Source: Methanolinea mesophila
GTDB lineage: Archaea; Halobacteriota; Methanomicrobia; Methanomicrobiales; Methanospirillaceae
DNA: 64,000 nucleotides
Assembly: GCF_017873855.1 (NCBI RefSeq)
Contig: NZ_JAGGKR010000001.1
Coordinates: 1,431,529-1,495,528, forward strand
Reading direction: 5' to 3'
The position numbers were made by a program, and so were the translations under genes. Under the pieces are notes generated by a model. That model was given only the letters and a program-made list of their open reading frames with translations. It was not told where the DNA came from and did not search any database. Shown here piece by piece: positions 30,002 through 62,607 of this stretch. Within the stretch, counting starts at the first letter, position 1, and every line of letters begins with the position of its first letter.

Positions 30002-31309
30002 CTAACCCGTCCCTGTGACGTCCCGGATGAACGCTTCCATCCGGGAGAGGATGGCCAGAGCCTGCGATCCCTGCAGCGAATCGGAACATATTCCCGCGGA
30101 GAAGGTGATCCTCTCCGAGAATGTGCTGACCGCCAGCCCGAAGCCGGGAGGATATTCCACCGGAGGAAGGATCCAGGCGTCACGGACTACCGGTTCGCCA
30201 AAATCAAGGAGTTCCTCGGACAGTATTCCGGTATTGGAGAAGAAAGGATTCATCTTTTCGTTGCCCTCCTCACTCGAAATTTCAAGGTCCCGCAGCCGGG
30301 TCCTGACCGCATAGAAACCTTCGGCGAACTCCTCCACCTGGCGCATCGCAACTCCGAGGCCGGTTCGATCCGCTTTATGGGCTGCCATCCCGGAATTGAC
30401 CGCGGCTACGAGTGATTCTCCGGCCAAGCCCCGGGGTATCCCGACCTCGAATGCCACCGACCCGTTGGCGCATTCGGCCATGGCCCCGGGGGCGAGCTGG
30501 CGGAGGTCCATGGCACAGAGTACGGGGAGGGGCCCGGGGGCATCGCCGTAAAAAGGCGAGAGAGCGTGGAAATACGCGGCGAGAAACAGGTCGTTGAGGG
30601 TAAACCCCCTGCCTTTGCACCATTTCCGCACCGGATGGAACAGATCCCTCTCGAGCGTCCTTGAGACGAACCTCGTGCCACCCCGTGTCTTCCCCATAGG
30701 GACCCCCCAGACCCGGGTCGTCTCTCCTGCGGCCCGTCGTGCCAGCTGCAATGTATCCGGGTCGAAACGGTCGAACAATCCGGAAAAACCGCGGGAACCC
30801 GGGTCGGGATCGGGGATAGGGCGTTCCGGTTCCCGGTAAAACCGGGCGAGCAGCCCCGCCAGGTATTTCATCCCCCTGGCGTCGCAGAGCGTATGGTTCA
30901 CGGAGAGGACCAGGGTATCGGATCCCGGACCGATCCGGGTGATACGGACCATGGGACCTTCCGCGGCATCGGGGCCGGGAGCGGCCAGGGCCAGTTCGAG
31001 ATCTCCTTCACCCGGCGGGAGCGAGACCAGTGTACCGGCGCGTTCCCGGTACTCTCCGGGCAGGAAGACGGGAACTTCGCCCTCAACGAACCGGGAGCCC
31101 GCGAGGGGCTCTGCGAGGAGGAGACACCCGGCCGCTTTGTTGAGCCGCTCCCACGCGAGCGGCTCGTCGAACCTGATCACCAGGTGCGCCACCTGGCTCC
31201 ATATCCCGGAGAGCAGGTAGTTCCACTGGTCGGGGACCGCGGCGGGAACGGGCGTCTTGTCTTTTGGGATCTCCTCTCCGGGGAACATTCTCCTGATTAT
31301 TAGTACCAT
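30002..31309 (-). CDS. Condensation-domain/acyltransferase-like protein
   Basis: A 435-residue stand-alone protein of the CoA-dependent acyltransferase fold. The family's catalytic HHxxxDG appears as SVNHTLCDARG (HTLCD keeps the HxxxD spacing; the first His is Asn). DFGEPVVRDAWILPP near the C-terminus corresponds to the DFG-W element of such enzymes (PapA, alcohol acetyltransferases, NRPS condensation domains). No carrier protein or NRPS gene is nearby. It is divergent from the MBL gene at 31382 (72-base gap). ATG 31288 is an alternative start. Substrate unknown; a lipid or peptide acyl transfer is an inference. Confidence 0.75.
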   Translation of the reverse strand: MVLIIRRMFPGEEIPKDKTPVPAAVPDQWNYLLSGIWSQVAHLVIRFDEPLAWERLNKAAGCLLLAEPLAGSRFVEGEVPVFLPGEYRERAGTLVSLPPGEGDLELALAAPGPDAAEGPMVRITRIGPGSDTLVLSVNHTLCDARGMKYLAGLLARFYREPERPIPDPDPGSRGFSGLFDRFDPDTLQLARRAAGETTRVWGVPMGKTRGGTRFVSRTLERDLFHPVRKWCKGRGFTLNDLFLAAYFHALSPFYGDAPGPLPVLCAMDLRQLAPGAMAECANGSVAFEVGIPRGLAGESLVAAVNSGMAAHKADRTGLGVAMRQVEEFAEGFYAVRTRLRDLEISSEEGNEKMNPFFSNTGILSEELLDFGEPVVRDAWILPPVEYPPGFGLAVSTFSERITFSAGICSDSLQGSQALAILSRMEAFIRDVTGTG

Positions 31310-31381: not shown

Positions 31382-33085
31382 ATGAAGATCGAACACCAGG
31401 TATGGCAGAAGGTACCCGGGACGAAGGGGCTCAAGCTCTATCCCTACATCCGGAAAGTGGACATCAACTCCTCGAATTCCTACCTCATCTCCTCGGAGCG
31501 TTTCATCATCCTCATCGACCCGGGCGGCCTGGAACCCCAGACCGAGGTCCTGCTTGAGGAGATCGCCCGCCTCCGGGAGGAGAATGACCGGCCGGTCCTG
31601 GTCTGCCTGACCCACATCCACCTCGATCACTGCCGTGAACTCCTCTTCAACCCCCGTCTCCGCGCCCTGCCCCGGATGGCGGTGGCGGTCCAGGACTCGG
31701 GAGCGGAGGCGCTGGCCCTGAAAAACCGGGCGGCAACCATCGCGGACATGCTCCATGTCGAGCTCCCGGACGGTGTCTCGGTGGATATACGTCTCGTAAT
31801 CTCCGAGGAGGGAGACCGGGAGTACGCCATGTGCGGGGAGCGGATCATCACCTGCTGCGACCCGGTCATCCTGGAGAACGATGACTCGTTCCCCCGCCAG
31901 GTGCTCCCCCTGGGAGGAGGGGACACCCTCGAGTTCTTCCATACCCCGGGCCATTCCCCGGACAGCGTCTGTATCAGGGCCGGGGAGTTCTTCATCATCG
32001 GGGACCTTCTCTTCGGCACCGCCCCGGTCATCGCCGGCATTTACGGCTGGTCGGCAGGGGAACTGGTGACCTCCATCGACAGGGTGACAGGGTTCATCGC
32101 GCAGGGAGGAGTGACCACCTTCCTGCCTGGTCACGGGAATGCGCTCGATACCCCCACTATGATCCGGGCCCTGTCCGGGATGCGGCGCGAGACGATGTCC
32201 CTCTCGGGGATCGACATGATCGATGCGGAGTGGGTGAGCGAGACCGCAGGATATGGCCAGGAGCTGATGGCCGAAGTCGAGCGCCTCTTCACGGTCATCG
32301 CCGGCAGGCTGGTGTACGTGGCCCACGTGCTCGACGAGATCGAGGAAAGCGGCGAGGCGGACCGGCTCAGGGGCCTGATCAACGCCGACCTGGTGGACGA
32401 ACTGATCGCCGATTTCAACTCATTCTCCCGGGACCTGCACGAAGGGAACATCGCGGAGCTCCACCTGGCATTGAAAGCAGGGCAGATCGTCTCCAAGCTG
32501 AACCGCATCTACCAGGAGGAGACGCTCTCCGAGGTACTCGACCTCTCGCTCGCCCGCCGGGCGGGCAGACTCCTCGAGGACTACGGGGCGAGGTTCCGGG
32601 GGTACCGCCCCCGGACGACCCTTATTCCTGCCGACCTGAACGAGGTGCTGGAAGCGGTTCTTACCGAACTCTCGGGCCCCGCCTACGGGGAGGAGGACAT
32701 CCTCGACGTGGAGGACGAAGCGCAGTTCGTCCGGGCCCTGGTGGTGAGGATCGCGTCGGTGAACATCTTCGAGGGGGTGTCCCTGCGGTTCACCCCGGCC
32801 CCGGGTATGATCCCGGCGGAGATGGACCGGGAGCGGTTCGGGGAGACCATGGCCTATCTGCTGGAGAAGCTGGTCTCTTCGGGAATGAAATCCGTTACCT
32901 TCACGAGCGCGCTCCTCCCGGAGGGCGGAGAACTCCGGGCTGCCTGGACGGGGGGCTCCGCCCTCGGGCCCACGCCCCTCCGATTCGGGACCAGGCTCGC
33001 CGGGCTTGCGGGTGCACGGCTCGAGGTGGAGCCGTGCCCGGAGGGAGGGATGTTCCGGATGATCTTCCACGCTCCCCCCCTGTAA
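31382..33085 (+). CDS. MBL-fold hydrolase fused to a long helical C-terminal region
   Basis: The N-terminal half (1-250) is a metallo-beta-lactamase-fold hydrolase with THIHLDH, HTPGHSPDS, IGDLLFG (Asp ligand) and LPGHG, and NSYLISS as the usual lead. Residues ~280-567 are not an MBL element: a long helical stretch with acid-rich helices (LMAEVERLFTVIAGRLVYVAHVLDE, DELIADFNSFSRDLHEGN) that could be a DHp-like bundle, then a mixed region (RTTLIPADLNEVLEAVLTEL ... DRERFGETMAYLLEKLVSSG ... GTRLAGLAGARLEVEPCPEGG) whose order recalls a histidine-kinase ATPase lacking N-box Asn and DxGxG. The STAS gene follows after 47 bases. The kinase-like reading is inference. Confidence 0.75.
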   Translation: MKIEHQVWQKVPGTKGLKLYPYIRKVDINSSNSYLISSERFIILIDPGGLEPQTEVLLEEIARLREENDRPVLVCLTHIHLDHCRELLFNPRLRALPRMAVAVQDSGAEALALKNRAATIADMLHVELPDGVSVDIRLVISEEGDREYAMCGERIITCCDPVILENDDSFPRQVLPLGGGDTLEFFHTPGHSPDSVCIRAGEFFIIGDLLFGTAPVIAGIYGWSAGELVTSIDRVTGFIAQGGVTTFLPGHGNALDTPTMIRALSGMRRETMSLSGIDMIDAEWVSETAGYGQELMAEVERLFTVIAGRLVYVAHVLDEIEESGEADRLRGLINADLVDELIADFNSFSRDLHEGNIAELHLALKAGQIVSKLNRIYQEETLSEVLDLSLARRAGRLLEDYGARFRGYRPRTTLIPADLNEVLEAVLTELSGPAYGEEDILDVEDEAQFVRALVVRIASVNIFEGVSLRFTPAPGMIPAEMDRERFGETMAYLLEKLVSSGMKSVTFTSALLPEGGELRAAWTGGSALGPTPLRFGTRLAGLAGARLEVEPCPEGGMFRMIFHAPPL

Positions 33086-33132
33086 CCTCTTTAACGGTCG
33101 CGGACTAACCTACCATAGCACAAGGGATTTTG

Positions 33133-33453
33133 ATGGCGGACCAGGTTGAAGTGGTGAAGGTTGAAGGGAGGATCGATGCGAGCTCGGCTCCCGGTATGGA
33201 GGCGGCGATCAACGCCCCCCTGGAGCGTGGGGTGAAGAAGATCGTGGTGGACCTCTCCGGCGTGGAATATATGAGCAGTGCAGGCCTCCGGGTGCTGCTG
33301 GCCTCCCTGAAGAAGGTCCGTTCCCTGGGCGGGGAGATGCGGCTTGCAGGGATGCAGCCGTTCGTAAAAGAGGTCTTCGATATGACCGGGTTCTCCCGGC
33401 TCTTCTCGGTCTCTGCAACGGTGGAAGAGGCGGTAAAAAGCCTCTCCTCATAA
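33133..33453 (+). CDS. STAS-domain anti-sigma factor antagonist-like protein
   Basis: A 106-residue STAS domain with the canonical order: VEVVKVEGRIDASSAPGMEA, KKIVVDLSGVEYMSSAGLRVLL and the C-terminal VKEVFDMTGFSRLFSV. The SSAG serine pair (about S48-S49) is at the site phosphorylated in SpoIIAA/RsbV-type antagonists. In bacteria such proteins switch partners between a kinase and a regulator, and PP2C phosphatases reset them; archaea lack sigma factors, so the target must be something else. A TTG at 33130 is an alternative start. Downstream of and probably cotranscribed with the MBL-fused gene. An A/T-run terminator follows. Confidence 0.9.
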   Translation: MADQVEVVKVEGRIDASSAPGMEAAINAPLERGVKKIVVDLSGVEYMSSAGLRVLLASLKKVRSLGGEMRLAGMQPFVKEVFDMTGFSRLFSVSATVEEAVKSLSS

Positions 33454-33565: not shown

Positions 33566-34927
33566 ATGCAACCCAAGACCAAGATTCTCCTCGATGAGGA
33601 CCAGATGCCCCGTCAGTGGTACAACATCCTCACCGACCTTCCCTCTCCCATGGACCCTCCGCTCCACCCGGGGACTCACAAGCCCCTGGTTCCGGACGAT
33701 CTCACCCCTATCTTTCCTATGGAATTGATCCGGCAGGAAATGAGCGACAAGAGGATGATCGACATCCCGGAGGATGTGCGGGACGTGCTCCGGCTCTGGA
33801 GGCCGAGCCCACTCTACCGTGCGACCCGGCTGGAAAAACACCTGAAGACCCCGGCGAAGATCTACTACAAGTGGGAAGGGGTGAGCCCGGCCGGGAGCCA
33901 CAAGCCCAACACTTCGGTCGCCCAGGCGTATTACAACATGAAAGCGGGGGTGGAACGGATCGCCACCGAGACGGGAGCAGGCCAGTGGGGTTCGGCGCTC
34001 GCGTTCGCCACCATGCTCTACGGGCTGGACTGCACGGTCTACATGGTCCGGTCGAGCTACACCCAGAAACCCTACCGGAAGTCGATGATGCAGGTATGGG
34101 GGGCCGAGTGCATCCCCAGCCCGAGCACCAAGACGAACTCCGGAAAAGCGGTGCTCGCAAAGGACCCGGACACCCCGGGGAGCCTCGGCATCGCAATCTC
34201 GGAGGCGGTGGAGGACGCGGCCACCCATGCCAACACCAACTACGCCCTCGGGTCGGTGCTCAATCACGTCTGTCTCCACCAGACGGTCATCGGTCTGGAA
34301 AGCAGGGAGCAGCTCGCCATGGTGGACGATTACCCCGACGTGGTGATCGGGTGCGTGGGCGGGGGGTCCAATTTCGCCGGGATATCGTTCCCCTTCGCCG
34401 GGGACAAGATGACCGGGAAGCATCCCGGAGTGGACATCGTGGGAGTGGAACCCGCGTCGTGCCCGACCCTTACGAAGGGGCTCTATACCTATGACTTCGG
34501 CGACGTCGCCGGGCTGACCCCGCTCATGAAGATGTTCACCCTGGGCCACGATTTCGTCCCGCCCTCGATCCATGCGGGGGGGCTCCGGTACCACGGCGAC
34601 TCGCCCATCGTCTCCAAGCTCGTGCACGACGGGGTGATGCGGGCGGTCTCCTACCACCAGAGCGAGGTTTTTGAAGCGGCCCAGACCTTCGCCCGGACGG
34701 AGGGGATCATCGTTGCACCGGAGACCTCCCACGCGGTGAAGGCAGCGATCGACTGCGCCCTGAAATGCAGGGAGACCGGAGAGGCGAAGACCATTCTCTT
34801 CAACTGCTCGGGACACGGGAACTTCGACATGTCCGCCTACGACGCATTCTACGCGGGGCAGCTGGTGGACTACGAGTATCCCGACGCATTGATCAAGGAG
34901 GCCCTTGGAAGGCTCCCGAAGGTGTGA
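33566..34927 (+). CDS. trpB2: Tryptophan synthase beta-like protein, TrpB2 type
   Basis: A 453-residue PLP enzyme of the TrpB2 class, which is longer than TrpB1 and usually lacks a TrpA partner. The N-terminus [20 protein letters not shown] is characteristic of TrpB2; the PLP lysine is in [13 protein letters not shown], the phosphate loop is [11 protein letters not shown] and the indole-site region [14 protein letters not shown] is present. TrpB2 makes tryptophan from serine and indole, or salvages indole. No trpA or other trp gene is nearby, in keeping with this class. Confidence 0.93.
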
Positions 34928-35270
34928 ACGCCCCTCCACACCTCTCGTTAACAGTAACCTTTCCTTTCGTTTTTTTCCGGAAAATCTTTACAATAAAGGG
35001 CTCTGTTGACGTCCTCGATCTCCCTCATGTATGATCATATTCTCAGGGCTTCGACAGAGGTAGTTCAGGAAAAAACGATAATTTATGAAGCTTCCGGGAC
35101 TCCGCCCCGCCGATGTGACGCCCCGAGGGATATGCCCGACCTGTTATAGGTCCGCCACACGCACCGCCGCATTGCGGGAGCCGGGTCCCAATCACAATGA
35201 AGCCCGCCGGCCGGTGCCCACGTCCGCCAGACCAGCAACCACAAGTCCTCCGGCTCCCCTACTCTTCCTG
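34928..35270. other. 343-base gap with repeat copy E
   Basis: Holds a T-rich run after trpB2 (TTTCGTTTTTTTCC, about 34965-34978), a copy of the dispersed repeat, and then proline-rich-coding-like sequence that is open in the frame of the next gene but gives no domain. No gene is assigned. Confidence 0.6.
35089..35155 (+). repeat. Dispersed hairpin repeat, copy E (divergent)
   Basis: GCTTCCGGGACTCCGCCCCG, CGATGTGACGCCCCGAGGGA, TATGCCCGACCTGTTATAGG. The most diverged copy: the second hairpin is lost, but CGCCCCGCCG and the CCCCGA.GGGATAT block align with B-D, and the tail shares TATGCC and CTGT.T...GGTCC with copy D. Confidence 0.55.
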
Positions 35271-36413
35271 ATGATACGCCGGATCGGATTCCTGGTAAAT
35301 CCTGTGGCCGGGATGGGAGGGGCCGTGGGACTGAAGGGAACCGACGGGCTGGTCGAGGAAGCGCGTGCCCGCGGGGCAGTCCCCCGGGCGGGTGCGAGGG
35401 CTGCGGAGGTGCTGGGGCGCCTCCGTGGCTCCCCTTACGAGTTCCTCACCTGTGCGGGGCCGATGGGAGAGGATTCGCTTCGGGAGGCCGGTATCGCCGC
35501 GTTTCGAGTGGTATACACCCCCCCGCCGGGGACATCCCGCGAGGACACCCTCGCTGCCTGCCGGGTGTTCGTCGCGGAGGGCGCGGACCTGGTCCTCTTC
35601 TGCGGGGGCGACGGCACTGCACGAGATATCTACGAGGTAACGGGGGACACGGTCCCCATCCTCGGGATCCCCGCCGGGGTGAAGATGTTCTCCGCGGTCT
35701 TCGCGCTCACGCCGGAGGCTGCGGCGGAGATCCTGATCCACGACCCGGCCTCGCTCCACCTCCGTGACGCGGAGGTGATGGACGTGGACGAGGAGGCCTA
35801 CCGGGAAGGGGCGCTCCGCACCCGGTTGATCGGGTACGCCCGGAGCCCCTACCTCCCCGGGCTGGTGCAGGGGGCCAAAAGGGTCTTCATCGACCAGGAC
35901 GAGGACCGTGCGCGGCACGAAATCGCCAGGTTCATCGCCGAGGTGATCCTGGGGACCCCGGAGACCGTGTATATTCTGGGCCCTGGCACCACTACGGGAG
36001 AGGTCGCGAGGGAGCTCGGGGTGGAAAAGACCCTGCTCGGGTTCGACGCGGTGAAATCAGGCAGATTGGTGGGCAGGGACCTGAACGAACGGGGAATGCG
36101 GGCCCTGCTCGCAGGACCCGGCCCCGCCCGTCTGGTGATATCGGTGCTCGGGGCCCAGGGCTCGGTGCTCGGGAGGGGGACCCAGCAGGTCAGCCCCGCG
36201 GTGCTCCGGAGGATCGGGGTCGGGAACGTGATCGTGATTGCCACCCCGCATAAACTCGCCGCCACCCCGGTCCTCTTCGTGGACACCGGGGAACCTGCCC
36301 TCGATGCGGCATTCGGGGAGACCGTGCAGGTCATTTCCGGGTATCACATCGCCCAGAGGATGAAACTAGCGCATCCGCGCCGGGTGGGAGACGGGTCCAC
36401 CCCGGGGGGATAG
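35271..36413 (+). CDS. ATP-NAD kinase-like (AcoX-type) protein
   Basis: The 380-residue protein opens MIRRIGFLVNPVAGMGGAVG and has the ATP-NAD/diacylglycerol kinase-fold motif LVLFCGGDGTARDI. These match AcoX-like NAD kinase homologues, common in archaea and annotated as ATP-NAD kinase family; members may phosphorylate NAD or another polyol. ATG 35271 fits the family's start, with the long upstream extension in the same frame being proline-rich and unlikely. It is convergent with nothing; the second ThiC follows after 78 bases and may share the transcript. Confidence 0.87.
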   Translation: MIRRIGFLVNPVAGMGGAVGLKGTDGLVEEARARGAVPRAGARAAEVLGRLRGSPYEFLTCAGPMGEDSLREAGIAAFRVVYTPPPGTSREDTLAACRVFVAEGADLVLFCGGDGTARDIYEVTGDTVPILGIPAGVKMFSAVFALTPEAAAEILIHDPASLHLRDAEVMDVDEEAYREGALRTRLIGYARSPYLPGLVQGAKRVFIDQDEDRARHEIARFIAEVILGTPETVYILGPGTTTGEVARELGVEKTLLGFDAVKSGRLVGRDLNERGMRALLAGPGPARLVISVLGAQGSVLGRGTQQVSPAVLRRIGVGNVIVIATPHKLAATPVLFVDTGEPALDAAFGETVQVISGYHIAQRMKLAHPRRVGDGSTPGG

Positions 36414-41817: not shown

Positions 41818-43746
41818 ATGCCCCGCCGGTCCTCTCTCTCGCTGGAACGCCTCTCGCTCCGTGCCTACCTCACGGTCTTCATCGTGATCATCATCATCGC
41901 GGTCGCGGCATTTCTCACCACAGTCTCCTATGTGAGCACCAGGGACCAGCTGATCACCCAGAACGAGAACCTCCAGGCATATATCGAGGAAAACGTCCTC
42001 GAATCGGTCAAACTGGTCGATACCGGGCTCCGGCTCTACGACAGCACCCTCAACCGGCAGATGCAGGACGCCTTTCCCCTCTACCTGGATGCGTACGACG
42101 CATCCGGCGGGGATATCGCGGCGATCAATCTCACCGCACTCAAATCCACCCTCCAGCCCGGGTTTTCCGGCACCCTCGACCTCTACGCGATCAACGAGTC
42201 CGGGGTGATCGTCGCCTCTACGGTCCCGGCGGTAATGGGGCTCGACTTCCAGCAGTATCCCGACTATTACCAGTCCATCACCCGCCTTCGGGAAGGGTCA
42301 AGTTTTGCCGCGGACCGGGTGGTCCGTTCGATTCCCAGCACGGAAGAGGGCACGGTGACCGGGACGCTCCGCAAGTTCGCTTACTTCCCCACGCCCGACC
42401 ACCGCTACCTCCTGGAGATGGGCCTTGAATCGGACGCGTTCTTCCAGGAAAGGACCGATCTCTCCTACGCGACGATTGCCGAACGGACTCTCCAGCTCGA
42501 CCCCAACCTGGTCTCGGTCCGGATCGTCGACACCAACAGGGTTCTCGTCTCAGTCCCCACGGGGACGAACGGCACCCTGGTCGAGGACCCGGGGATCGAC
42601 AGGGCGCTTGCCACGAGGCAGACCTTCTCCGTCGCCGACCCTGCCGGGGGGACCGTCACGACCTACCTCTTCGCCGACTTAAAAGACCCTGCCGCGGCTT
42701 CCGACCCGAGCCTGGTCATCGAGATGGTCAATTCCGGAGCCCTCCTCGAGGCAGAGCTCCATCAGATACTTGTCCTGCACTTCCTGGTAGCCCTAATCGC
42801 GGTGGGGATGGGGGTGGTCCTGGCCTATGGTACCGCCCGGATGCTCACCCGGCCGATCCGGGAGATCATCGAGGACGTGGACACCATCGCCCGCGGCGAC
42901 CTCGACCATCCCATCCGGGGGATGGAGAACCCCGAGTTCACCATGCTCGAGAACAGCATCACCATCATGATCCAGCGGATCAGGGAGTATTCGGAAGCTC
43001 TCGAGCGGGAGAAGGCCGAGCTCCGGATCGCCTCCCACATCCAGCTCTCGTTCCTGCCCCGGAAAGTGCCCCGGATCGAGGGGTTCGATATCGCCGCGGT
43101 GAGCACCCCCGCCCGGGAAGTGGGCGGAGACTTCTACGACATCATCGACCTCGGAAAGGAACGGACGGGCCTGGTCATCGCGGACGTGGCCGGGAAGGGG
43201 GTTCCCGCCGCCCTGTTCATGGTGCTCTCCCGGACGACCGTCCGGACCAGCGCCCGGATGAAGGAACCGGTGGCAGCGGCGGTGACGGATGCGAACCGGA
43301 TGATCTCCGCGGATGCCGACCAGGGGATGTTCGTCACCCTGGTGCTCGGGATCCTCGACCACCGGGCCCGTGAGTTCACCTACGGGAACGCCGGCCACAA
43401 CCCCCCGCTCCACTACCGGGACTCGACCGGGGAGATCATCCCCCTCTCTCCCACGGGAATGGCGCTCGGAGTGGACGAGGACGCCATATACACCCAGGCG
43501 GCGGTGACCCTCGACCCGGGCGACCTCCTGGTCTTCTATACCGACGGGGTGGTCGAGGCGGAAGACGCAGCCCATGGGCAGTTCGGTGAGGACCGCCTGG
43601 TCGCGGTAATCCGGCAGCACCACGATCTCACCGCGGCCGGTGTCCTCGCGAAGATCCAGGAGGCGATCGGAGAGTTCATCGCCGGAGCGCCGCAATACGA
43701 CGACCTTACCATCCTGGTGCTCAGGGCTACCCCGAAACCCGAATGA
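41818..43746 (+). CDS. Membrane PP2C (SpoIIE-type) phosphatase with sensor domain and HAMP
   Basis: A 642-residue protein: membrane helix (YLTVFIVIIIIAVAAFLTTVSY, about 18-39), a large extracytoplasmic dCache-like sensor (about 45-320), second helix (VALIAVGMGVVLAYGTAR), a HAMP linker (LTRPIREIIEDVDTIARGDLDHPI), and a C-terminal SpoIIE/RsbU phosphatase domain with STPAREVGGDFYDIIDL, VIADVAGKGVPAALFM, NAGHNPPLHY and YTDGVVEAEDA, covering the metal-binding Asp residues. Such proteins dephosphorylate STAS antagonists when stimulated. The only STAS gene in the window is at 33133; a link is an inference. Ends 42 bases before the hemerythrin gene. Confidence 0.92.
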   Translation: MPRRSSLSLERLSLRAYLTVFIVIIIIAVAAFLTTVSYVSTRDQLITQNENLQAYIEENVLESVKLVDTGLRLYDSTLNRQMQDAFPLYLDAYDASGGDIAAINLTALKSTLQPGFSGTLDLYAINESGVIVASTVPAVMGLDFQQYPDYYQSITRLREGSSFAADRVVRSIPSTEEGTVTGTLRKFAYFPTPDHRYLLEMGLESDAFFQERTDLSYATIAERTLQLDPNLVSVRIVDTNRVLVSVPTGTNGTLVEDPGIDRALATRQTFSVADPAGGTVTTYLFADLKDPAAASDPSLVIEMVNSGALLEAELHQILVLHFLVALIAVGMGVVLAYGTARMLTRPIREIIEDVDTIARGDLDHPIRGMENPEFTMLENSITIMIQRIREYSEALEREKAELRIASHIQLSFLPRKVPRIEGFDIAAVSTPAREVGGDFYDIIDLGKERTGLVIADVAGKGVPAALFMVLSRTTVRTSARMKEPVAAAVTDANRMISADADQGMFVTLVLGILDHRAREFTYGNAGHNPPLHYRDSTGEIIPLSPTGMALGVDEDAIYTQAAVTLDPGDLLVFYTDGVVEAEDAAHGQFGEDRLVAVIRQHHDLTAAGVLAKIQEAIGEFIAGAPQYDDLTILVLRATPKPE

Positions 43747-59139: not shown

Positions 59140-62100
59140 TCAGAGAATGCTCGGTTCGGTAATGGTCACCGGTTCTTTTGGGATAGTGAATGCGAACGTC
59201 GCCCCGGCTTCGCTTTTGGGTTCCACCCATATCTTTCCGCCGTGCCGCTCCACAATCTTCCTCACGATGGAGAGCCCGATCCCCGTCCCGGGATATTTGT
59301 CCCGGTTATGCAGCCGCTTGAATATCTCGAATATCTGCTCGTTGAATGCGGGATCGATACCGATACCGTTGTCGCTCACGGAGAAGACCCATTCCCGCTC
59401 TCCCCCCGCAACCGAGACCCTGACCCTCGGAGGGAGATCGCTCCGGTATTTCAGACTGTTCCCGATCAGGTTCTGGAAGACCTGGATCATCTGCCACCGG
59501 TCGGCCCAGATCACGGGGAGTTCCGCGATATCGATCGAGGCGTCGTTCTCCGCGATCTGGAGGGCGAGGTTCGTGACGACCTCGGTGAGTACACCGTTCA
59601 TATCGGTCTCCTCGAAGGGTTTGGCCTTTGAGCTGACCCGGGAGAATTCCAGAAGGTCGTCGATGAGCGCACCCATGCGGGTCCCGCCTTCCACGATGTA
59701 GTGGATGAACTCGTCGGCGTCCTCGTCAAGTCGCCCCTTGTAATTTTTTGCCAGCAGCTGGGAGAAGACCGTGACCATCCTGAGCGGCTCCCGAAGGTCG
59801 TGGCTCGCGACATACGCGAACTGTTCGAGTTCCTTGTTACTCCGCTTCAGGCTTTCGGCGTAATTTTTCAGGGTCTCTTCCGCTTTCCGCCGGTCAGTGA
59901 TGTCCTCGAAGAGTGTATAGACCTGGTAAGGGAGCGCCTCACCGGGATGGAAGAGCGGCATGGCGGACTGGACGTTGATCCATCGGTACCCGGCCTCGCG
60001 GGGGTTGTAGACCCCCATTATGACATTCTGCACCTCTTTCCCGGTGGAAAGGGCGACCATCGCGGGATGTTTCGATTCCGGGAACCGTGAACCGTCCTCA
60101 TGCACGGTGTGGCTCTCCTCGTCGAGCGGCGTCCTTCCGAGAAGTTCTCCGGGACTTTTCCCGAGGATCCGCTCTGCGGCCGGGTTCATCGAGATGTAGA
60201 TCCCCTCAGAGTCCTGGTAGACCACTCCCTGCACCATGGTGTCGTGAAGAGCCCGGAACTTCTGCTCGGAGGTCCGGATTGCCACCTCGAAATTTTTCCG
60301 TTCGGTGATGTCGATGCAGATGCCCGACATCCGCAGCGGCCGACCGGACTCATCGTATATCGTCTTTCCGAGTGCCTGGATCCAGCGCAGCCCGCCACCC
60401 GGCACGATAATGCGGTACTCGCTCGACAGCGGTGCATGGTCCCTTATTGCATCATCGATCTTCTCTTCTGCGATCCTGGCATCTTCGGGATGGAGGATCG
60501 ATCGCCACAGATCGAAGGTTGCGGTCCGGGTAGGGTCCAGACCGTAGATCCGGTAGAGTTCGGGCGACCAGGTGAGCGCCCCCTCAGCAATGTCCCAGTC
60601 CCATATGCCGGCTCCTGCCGAATCCTGGGCCAGGATCAGCCGCTCGTTCGTGATCGCCAGTGCCATGGCCGTCTTTTTCCGCTCCGTGATGTCCTGGCCC
60701 TGGGCTATGGTGGAGAGGACGGTCTGGTTGTCCGGCTTGAACAGGGTCGCCGAGTTCCAAAGCACGGTCCTGACCTCCCCGCTAACGTGCAGGATGGGAA
60801 TCTCCACTGCCTCCCACCGTTCGCCGGCCTGCGTCCGCTGGATCAGGTCCATGGAGGCACTCCGTGAGCTTTCCGGGAAGAGGATGTCGAGGGATTTGCC
60901 AATAACCGAGGGTGCATGCCTCCCGGTCAGGCGCTCGAACGCGTGGTTGAACCGCGTGATTCGGAACTCCGGGTCCCAGACGATAATGGGGGCGTTTGCG
61001 TAGGTGATCAGGTTGTCCAGGTACAGGCTGGTCTCCCGGAGTCCCCGCTCGCTCTTCCCGAGATCCTTCAGGTTCTGCCTGAGTACCTCCTCCTTTTCCG
61101 CGAGGTCTTCATTCAGGGTTATGAGTTCCGCATTCGTCTGGGAGAGCGCCCGTTCCGCTCGTTTCCGCTCCGTGATGTCCTGGCCCTGTGCGATGGTAGA
61201 GAGGACGGTCTGCCCGTCCGATTTGTACAGGGTCGCCGAGTTCCAAAGCACGGTCCTGACCTCCCCGCTGACATGCAGGATGGGAATCTCCACTGCCTCC
61301 CACCGTTCACCCATCTTGGTCCTCCGGATAAGGTTCATAGAGGCGGTCCGGGACGATACCGGGAAGAGAATCTCGAGGGACCGGCCGAGGACAGATGCCG
61401 CCGTCCTCCCGGTCAGGCGCTCGAACGCGTGGTTGAACCGGGTGATCCGGAACTCCGGGTCCCAGACGATGATGGGAGCGTTCGCATAGGTGATCAGGTT
61501 GTCCAGGTACTGGCCGGTCTCCCGGAGCATACTCTCGTGTTGGAGGAGTTCGTCGTTGGTATGCCGGAGTTCCTCCTCGATGACCCGCTGCTCTTCGTGT
61601 ACCCTCTGAAGGTCTATGTTCTTTCTGGCCAGATCGTCCTTCACCTGCTCCTGCTCTGTAATATCCGAAAAAACCGTGGAAAACCATCCCTGGCGGGCCG
61701 AGGTGCAGGAGATGGCGAACTGGCGGTTCAACGGAGGGAAGAACCGGGTGAACGACACCGGGGTCCCGGTCGCAGCCACCCGGGCATACTCGTCGAGGAA
61801 CGGGGGCGGGCTCACCCCGTAGAGTTCGCTCGCGAGCGCTTCCACGGCTCTCTCCGCAGGGATCCCGGTGTGCCGCTCGAATGCGAGGTTCACTTCGGTG
61901 ATCTTGTAATCGATCGGATTCCCTTCGGCATCGGAGATGATCTGGTGCAGGGCAACGCCCTCGTTCATCGACTGGAACAGCGTCCTGTACCGCAGTTCGG
62001 AATCGTGGACCGCCGCATCGATCTTCTTCCTAGTGGTGTTCTCGAGGATCTGCCATTCGCCGTCCCGTTTGATCAGGGCGAACTCGTGGTTCTCGATGAC

Positions 62101-62607
62101 GTCTATGATCTCTTTTGCACCGCATTTTACGAGCGAATATGTGCAAAGGGCGATCATCCTCTGGGACCCGATAACTTCGTTCACCATCTCCTCGTACCGG
62201 GTGAAGTCGTCCCAGTCCCCGGGTTCGAGCCAGAACGTATTCCCGGTGAGCCGGAGTCCTTCGAACCCATTCCTCCTGGCTTCTGCGAGCTTGTCGGACC
62301 AATCTTTGAGCACGTCCCCGGCATCGAATGTGCCGGTCTTTGTGTACCACCCGGTAGAGTCGAGGATCTCGATCTGACCTTTCTTTATCCGTGCGTCCAG
62401 GTCGGGTACCACCGCCCGGAGCGCCTTTTTTGCCTGTGCGACCTTGAGGGGTGCGGAAGTCACCCACAGGCAGAACTCGTTCGAGAGGAGCCCCTCCCTG
62501 AAATACGGTACCAGGGTGTCGAGGAGATCCCGGTCCGTTTCGTAGAACTGGCAGAAATGAGTCCCCCACCGGACCTTGCCCACCACTGGAATGCCGGTCT
62601 GCCGCAT
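59140..62607 (-). CDS. MEDS-domain multi-PAS sensor histidine kinase
   Basis: A 1155-residue soluble sensor kinase. Residues ~10-170 match the MEDS domain of methanogen/methylotroph sensors (HFCQFYETDRDLLDTLVPYF, LWVTSAPL). Five PAS domains follow (about 210-320, 365-480, 530-645, 655-780, 785-905); the second and third are near-duplicates (both start LITYANAPIIVWDPEFRI). The kinase core has H936 in YVASHDLREPLRM, N-box NLIGNSLKYRS, SDNGIGIDP and GTGIGLSIVRKI. There is no membrane segment and no response regulator nearby. MRQTGIPVVGKV at 62607 begins the MEDS domain. Confidence 0.93.
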   Translation of the reverse strand: MRQTGIPVVGKVRWGTHFCQFYETDRDLLDTLVPYFREGLLSNEFCLWVTSAPLKVAQAKKALRAVVPDLDARIKKGQIEILDSTGWYTKTGTFDAGDVLKDWSDKLAEARRNGFEGLRLTGNTFWLEPGDWDDFTRYEEMVNEVIGSQRMIALCTYSLVKCGAKEIIDVIENHEFALIKRDGEWQILENTTRKKIDAAVHDSELRYRTLFQSMNEGVALHQIISDAEGNPIDYKITEVNLAFERHTGIPAERAVEALASELYGVSPPPFLDEYARVAATGTPVSFTRFFPPLNRQFAISCTSARQGWFSTVFSDITEQEQVKDDLARKNIDLQRVHEEQRVIEEELRHTNDELLQHESMLRETGQYLDNLITYANAPIIVWDPEFRITRFNHAFERLTGRTAASVLGRSLEILFPVSSRTASMNLIRRTKMGERWEAVEIPILHVSGEVRTVLWNSATLYKSDGQTVLSTIAQGQDITERKRAERALSQTNAELITLNEDLAEKEEVLRQNLKDLGKSERGLRETSLYLDNLITYANAPIIVWDPEFRITRFNHAFERLTGRHAPSVIGKSLDILFPESSRSASMDLIQRTQAGERWEAVEIPILHVSGEVRTVLWNSATLFKPDNQTVLSTIAQGQDITERKKTAMALAITNERLILAQDSAGAGIWDWDIAEGALTWSPELYRIYGLDPTRTATFDLWRSILHPEDARIAEEKIDDAIRDHAPLSSEYRIIVPGGGLRWIQALGKTIYDESGRPLRMSGICIDITERKNFEVAIRTSEQKFRALHDTMVQGVVYQDSEGIYISMNPAAERILGKSPGELLGRTPLDEESHTVHEDGSRFPESKHPAMVALSTGKEVQNVIMGVYNPREAGYRWINVQSAMPLFHPGEALPYQVYTLFEDITDRRKAEETLKNYAESLKRSNKELEQFAYVASHDLREPLRMVTVFSQLLAKNYKGRLDEDADEFIHYIVEGGTRMGALIDDLLEFSRVSSKAKPFEETDMNGVLTEVVTNLALQIAENDASIDIAELPVIWADRWQMIQVFQNLIGNSLKYRSDLPPRVRVSVAGGEREWVFSVSDNGIGIDPAFNEQIFEIFKRLHNRDKYPGTGIGLSIVRKIVERHGGKIWVEPKSEAGATFAFTIPKEPVTITEPSIL
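60672..61516 (-). repeat. 486-base direct duplication of a PAS domain within the kinase gene
   Basis: DNA at about 60672-61030 and 61158-61516 is very similar. The marker GTCCTGGCCCTG recurs at 60691 and 61177 (486 bases, 162 codons apart). The copies differ at many third positions and some codons, so the duplication is not brand new. Confidence 0.85.

Follow-up and report, generated by a model that had tools for sequence, protein, structure and literature searches.

A metallo-beta-lactamase-fold hydrolase with a pseudokinase tail as a candidate target of sigma-free partner switching in Methanomicrobiales

Among the closest described relatives of the locus presented here are the bacterial partner switches SpoIIAA-SpoIIAB-sigmaF and RsbV-RsbW-sigmaB, with which it shares a STAS protein, a GHKL kinase and a SpoIIE/RsbU-type phosphatase, including their active residues. 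The archaeal version differs in that its presumed target is an enzyme, that docking presumably takes place on a DHp-CA pseudokinase and not on SpoIIAB, and that no sigma factor was seen among its nameable recurrent neighbours. The same combination of STAS antagonist, GHKL Ser kinase and SpoIIE phosphatase is on record for the Methanomicrobiales themselves: Anderson et al. 2009 report SpoIIAA-, SpoIIAB- and SpoIIE-like proteins ("sigma-factor regulators") in this order, note that archaea are without bona fide sigma factors and state that the genome does not allow their targets to be identified (PMC2686161). The word "lactamase" is absent from the text of that paper. The Methanoculleus marisnigri genome paper finds such proteins surprising and assumes that they serve a new function (PMC3035220), and in the portions of the open-access literature consulted we found no paper naming a target of these archaeal regulators. 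Archaeal anti-sigma and anti-anti-sigma proteins without sigma factors have been a puzzle on record since 2009, a record that an earlier sequence-only reading of this DNA had missed.

Partner switching is also not confined to sigma factors in bacteria. Bacterial partner switches act on diguanylate cyclases through STAS-type binding, for example in SiaABCD of Pseudomonas aeruginosa (also HsbD/HsbA and BgrR/BgrV), where unphosphorylated SiaC binds and activates SiaD (PMC8457831). SiaABCD has in common with the archaeal set the phosphatase, the kinase and the STAS-type enzyme controller; while there it is the stalk of a diguanylate cyclase (SiaD) that is bound, the presumed target in our case is an archaeal hydrolase of the metallo-beta-lactamase (MBL) superfamily with a pseudokinase tail derived from a histidine kinase.

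The window, by which we mean the whole 64-kb stretch analysed out of a 2.66-Mb genome, encodes this hydrolase on the plus strand as an ORF of 567 aa (31382-33085), which is not a chance reading frame because full-length relatives occur across the order. Pfam recognizes Lactamase_B (1.7e-14) in its N-terminal half only, corresponding to an MBL domain of residues 1-272 (31382..32197), and gives zero matches in the C-terminal half. Seven metal ligands (H78, H80, D82, H83, H191, D208 and H251) are invariant among 45 aligned homologs and make up an intact site of the type HxHxDH...H...D...H that characterizes the superfamily; judged by these residues, the head should be active as a hydrolase. Foldseek with the full-length AF2 model returned MBL structures alone among the matches listed, GloB-like and other MBL enzymes being matched by the head. 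The fold and the HxHxDH-H-D-H site are common to GloB/lactonase-like hydrolases, from which the window protein is set apart by its C-terminal pseudokinase and its linkage to a partner switch. A reading as an oxygen-sensing diiron MBL protein is disfavoured by the motif, which is HxHxDH and not the HxExDH that we take to be the mark of that group. A link to acyl-homoserine lactones (Methanosaeta FilI) is a lead only.

With the full-length Foldseek listing showing MBL matches only, the C-terminal half was modelled separately. AF2 predicted the whole protein (45 homologs) with a mean pLDDT of 91.2 and a pTM of 0.86, and the C-terminal half alone (58 rows) with 89.9 and 0.87. The model of this half consists of a DHp-like helical bundle (residues 283-405; 32228..32596) and a CA (HATPase)-like domain (residues 413-567; 32618..33082) with strands and helices in GHKL order, in which the ATP lid is missing. 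A family-specific insert within the CA fold (residues 434-460; 32681..32761) forms two helices in the model (437-441 and 446-458), is conserved among homologs and aligns to a gap in histidine kinases. All 50 PDB matches listed by Foldseek are of the sensor-kinase type, mostly DHp-CA cores of histidine kinases, with a best E of 2e-7 and a target TM of at most 0.65 (for the CA domain alone) among the matches listed. The top match of a sequence profile against the PDB was weak (the histidine kinase ZraS, E 0.026, the printed alignment lying in the CA region), and hhalign against a profile of 15 histidine kinases, thirteen from the same genome and two from other archaea, gave a probability of 95.4 and a P of 1.7e-8 over the CA domain.

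The fold is hence that of HisKA plus HATPase_c, but neither the ATP boxes nor a conserved acceptor His are there. In a motif count over 58 aligned relatives not one retains the N-box, DxGxG or G2 in canonical form, Asn is absent from the residues listed for its N-box column, and every column of the DHp-like part has His in at most 25 of the 58 rows, so that none is conserved. On this count the C-terminal half is, as far as sequence and model can tell, an ancestral pseudokinase (pHK), a histidine-kinase core that lost its ATP site. In one relative (G189, L046:3527-4456) most of the MBL domain is gone while the N-terminal start and pHK are kept, with a STAS gene upstream.

In the window, the gene for a STAS antagonist of 106 aa follows (33133..33453, plus strand; Pfam STAS 2.4e-23), which is also above the NCBIfam cut-off for the anti-sigma antagonist superfamily (TIGR00377). 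Its start is likely, from the sequence context, the ATG at 33133, favoured over a TTG at 33130; the ATG is preceded by an AGGG stretch and lies 47 nt 3' of the hydrolase gene. An alignment of 17 STAS proteins shows no variation at D15 or at S49 (codon 33277-33279). S49 coincides with SpoIIAA Ser58, giving the domain a putative acceptor Ser at the Ser58/Ser56 position of SpoIIAA/RsbV antagonists. A candidate sensor phosphatase with a membrane part, HAMP and a PP2C-type SpoIIE domain (Pfam SpoIIE 5.7e-53) is encoded 8.4 kb away (41818..43746, plus strand); it can be tied to the set because it shares 44% identity over 629 aa with the SpoIIE protein of an MBL-pHK/STAS/RsbW cluster in another genome (G132). 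The sequence-only reading had described a normal MBL head, a C-terminal half recalling DHp plus ATPase without ATP-binding residues, a STAS antagonist next to it and a SpoIIE-type phosphatase about 8 kb off. That description holds throughout: seven of seven metal ligands are kept, AF2, Foldseek and hhalign agree on a histidine-kinase fold and not an unrelated one, the motif count shows the ATP-binding residues to be lost, and both neighbouring ORFs as well as the phosphatase are present.

Can the association also be seen in other genomes? By hand count, the STAS gene is fused to MBL-pHK or lies within 335 nt of it in 49 of 65 distinct loci, so that the earlier reading survives its refuting condition that the two genes are not neighbours in relatives. 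It may follow the hydrolase gene, the order seen in the window, precede it, mostly with an overlap, or run divergently, and in five cases it is part of an MBL-pHK-STAS fusion (694-aa class, with one of the five truncated at a contig end) that the earlier reading had not seen. In a tree of 88 STAS domains the five fusions group on a single branch (100/97) nested among the downstream STAS of the window type, which by this tree marks a single origin of the fusion; the linked STAS as a whole are spread over several distinct clades, the deep forks being without resolution. In 23 of the 65 loci a SpoIIE gene is found no more than about 1 kb from MBL-pHK. Among loci without an adjoining STAS gene, one is cut by a contig end and three others have a STAS-DUF gene plus SpoIIE within about 3.4 kb. 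Unsupervised clustering of the neighbours of 67 loci recovered STAS in 38, a 140-aa RsbW-type kinase in 29, SpoIIE in 15 and STAS-DUF in 13, and a PAS-type cluster of 10 adds some further SpoIIE. Further recurrent neighbours, found in at most eight loci, look like local synteny. No sigma factor was seen among the recurrent clusters that could be named. The STAS-DUF protein of 435 aa (L035:7949-9253, L047:6156-7418, L066:7652-8983), encoded in the window's genome too, has an N-terminal STAS domain and a 300-aa C-terminal part with zero Pfam or NCBIfam matches.

The set also includes an RsbW-type kinase, overlooked in the earlier reading, which is encoded elsewhere in the window's genome and beside MBL-pHK in relatives. 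PF13581 has matches in 204 of the 232 genomes when E 0.001 is applied and in 190 above the cut-off, but many of these matches are histidine kinases. Counting clear cases, an RsbW-type kinase is encoded in 108 of the 117 genomes with MBL-pHK versus 23 of the 115 without it (Fisher p 2e-31, too small a value given that the genomes are related and phylogeny is uncorrected); the nine MBL-pHK genomes without a clear kinase are mostly incomplete or have partial matches. Kinase and MBL-pHK share a contig in 76 genomes, within 5 kb in 58 of them and 11-21 kb apart in 17, the latter being the Methanoculleus-type arrangement. In seven aligned RsbW-type kinases, E and N of the N-box, D, G and F of G1 and GGLG of G2 are invariant; a motif regex recognized the full trio in 44 of the 76 small ORFs, the others with few exceptions failing on G1 alone, both regexes used being too strict when judged against that alignment. 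The clearest clustered cases are two genomes (G374 and G410) in which the STAS search detected one STAS each, adjoining MBL-pHK and SpoIIE; in G410 the kinase follows SpoIIE (L116:8668-9081). In a further genome (G498) SpoIIE and the kinase domain form one fused protein, followed by STAS, with MBL-pHK divergent. Since the kinase also occurs in 23 genomes that have no MBL-pHK, the switch must have further targets.

The window's own genome encodes both an intact GHKL Ser kinase (PF13581) and SpoIIE/PP2C phosphatases, with five STAS matches, five SpoIIE-domain matches and one strong PF13581 kinase (C1:1010746; L065:6720-7280; 107 bits, motifs intact). This kinase has its own STAS beside it, about 450 kb from the window, and only the STAS gene is next door to the hydrolase. 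The counterpart of the pair in Methanolinea (L296) is ordered STAS-SpoIIE-RsbW. In the window's genome SpoIIE is missing between the two (L065:6720-7754) and the STAS sits on a very long branch; from these two loci, it seems that SpoIIE was lost from the operon. The separate operon rules out the fused STAS as the sole substrate of the kinase in Methanolinea, and because it exists besides the fusion, the specificity of the kinase for the linked STAS can only be presumed.

How widespread is the hydrolase itself? A protein search at E 0.001 matched 152 of 232 genomes of Methanomicrobiales, MBL-domain-only matches included, and a hand tally of strong matches (best E below 1e-20) gave 117 genomes, mostly with full-length proteins or contig-edge fragments; the genomes with linked genes are mostly MAGs. 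Full-length relatives also occur outside the order in a family (f22) that named Methanothrix records suggest to be Methanotrichaceae. Among the named records matched, those of Methanolinea are closest to the window's genome. Bacterial members are rare, being found in 3 of 113 genomes of Desulfotomaculales (the order of a Pelotomaculum record) and in a Geobacter and a Hydrogenedentes MAG, which rules out a family confined to archaea. In the three Desulfotomaculales loci (L292, L293, L141) a STAS gene precedes the hydrolase in a setting of common bacterial genes (by sequence resembling Ku and TrpS), and in two of the three frameshifts split the hydrolase gene, through decay or sequencing error. 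As Pelotomaculum is a syntroph of methanogens, gene transfer of the pair is possible.

Taken together, the archaeal partner-switching set proposed by the sequence-only reading stands, with kinase, phosphatase and STAS present and linked or fused across genomes. We consider it probable that the locus forms the output side of a sigma-free switch, in which the membrane SpoIIE sensor phosphatase and a SpoIIAB/RsbW-type Ser kinase would set the phosphorylation of STAS at S49. Unphosphorylated STAS would then dock on the pHK of the MBL hydrolase and, via pHK, switch its activity. These three steps, S49 phosphorylation, docking and control of the hydrolase, we infer; what counts for the explanation as a whole is the fold, the STAS linkage, the co-occurrence of the kinase, the gene fusion, the conserved S49 and kinase motifs, and the diguanylate-cyclase precedent. 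The distant kinase-STAS pair of the window's genome, the separate operon of Methanolinea, the genomes with the kinase but no MBL-pHK and the Methanoculleus-type loci, which have no STAS next door, count against this explanation. MBL-pHK is nevertheless the best candidate target of the Methanomicrobiales switch proteins and, to judge by the papers found, a first concrete candidate for what the switch controls in archaea, one whose domains suggest a mechanism and for which a gene fusion occurs naturally. If the explanation is true, a dead two-component kinase has been reused as docking platform for another signalling system.

Doubtful by comparison is the suggestion of the sequence-only reading that takes the hydrolase, or its product, for the signal. 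Output is the more likely role on our analysis because bacterial switches control diguanylate cyclases and the sensors of the set appear to be the SpoIIE phosphatases, whose sensor parts are HAMP or 5TMR-LYT. An input role, where the enzyme or what it makes would be sensed and pHK would capture or release STAS and feed a different, unlinked target, could draw on the placement of pHK where the kinase sits in a sensor, on a 1167-aa 5TMR-LYT membrane protein of Methanospirillum-type genomes that ends in pHK, and on the other targets shown by kinase-bearing genomes without MBL-pHK. We regard it as unlikely: besides the SpoIIE sensors, the linked enzymes of the bacterial precedents are outputs, and the STAS-DUF protein is the sole other widely conserved linked gene that could serve as one.

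DHp-like bundles commonly dimerise, and one may ask if pHK only serves a metabolic hydrolase as a tail for dimerisation or stability, its neighbourhood being historical. This is quite improbable in view of STAS genes linked in several arrangements and by fusion, apparently from different STAS clades, of the strong co-occurrence with the kinase, and of a linkage seen again in Methanothrix relatives and, as far as STAS is concerned, in the three Desulfotomaculales bacteria. Least credible of all is a working divergent kinase or phosphotransfer module, which the histidine-kinase fold would allow but which is contradicted by the loss of N-box, DxGxG and G2 in all 58 relatives, the missing ATP lid and the lack of a conserved acceptor His.

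The pHK-terminated membrane protein of about 1167 aa in Methanospirillum-type genomes (L031:375-3875, L032:2685-6140, L033:16891-19500) combines an Nramp-like N-terminal part (NCBIfam Nramp_1 above the cut-off in L031) with 5TMR-LYT regions and is a possible second target of the switch. More tentatively, pHK might be a portable STAS-docking domain that rewired the sigma switch of bacteria onto archaeal enzymes, namely the MBL hydrolase in Methanomicrobiales and Methanothrix relatives and the Nramp-like/5TMR-LYT protein in Methanospirillum-type genomes. If true, this would provide a sigma-free switch that works on metabolism or a small-molecule signal.

The locus is flanked in the window by an uncharacterised protein with a weak condensation-domain match (30002-31309, minus strand), a TrpB-like gene (33566-34927) and an NAD-kinase-like gene (35085-36413), which are shared with a Methanolinea locus (L120) and constitute local synteny. 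Further away, an ORF of 1155 aa (59140-62607, minus strand) carries HATPase_c, one of 34 such matches in the genome.
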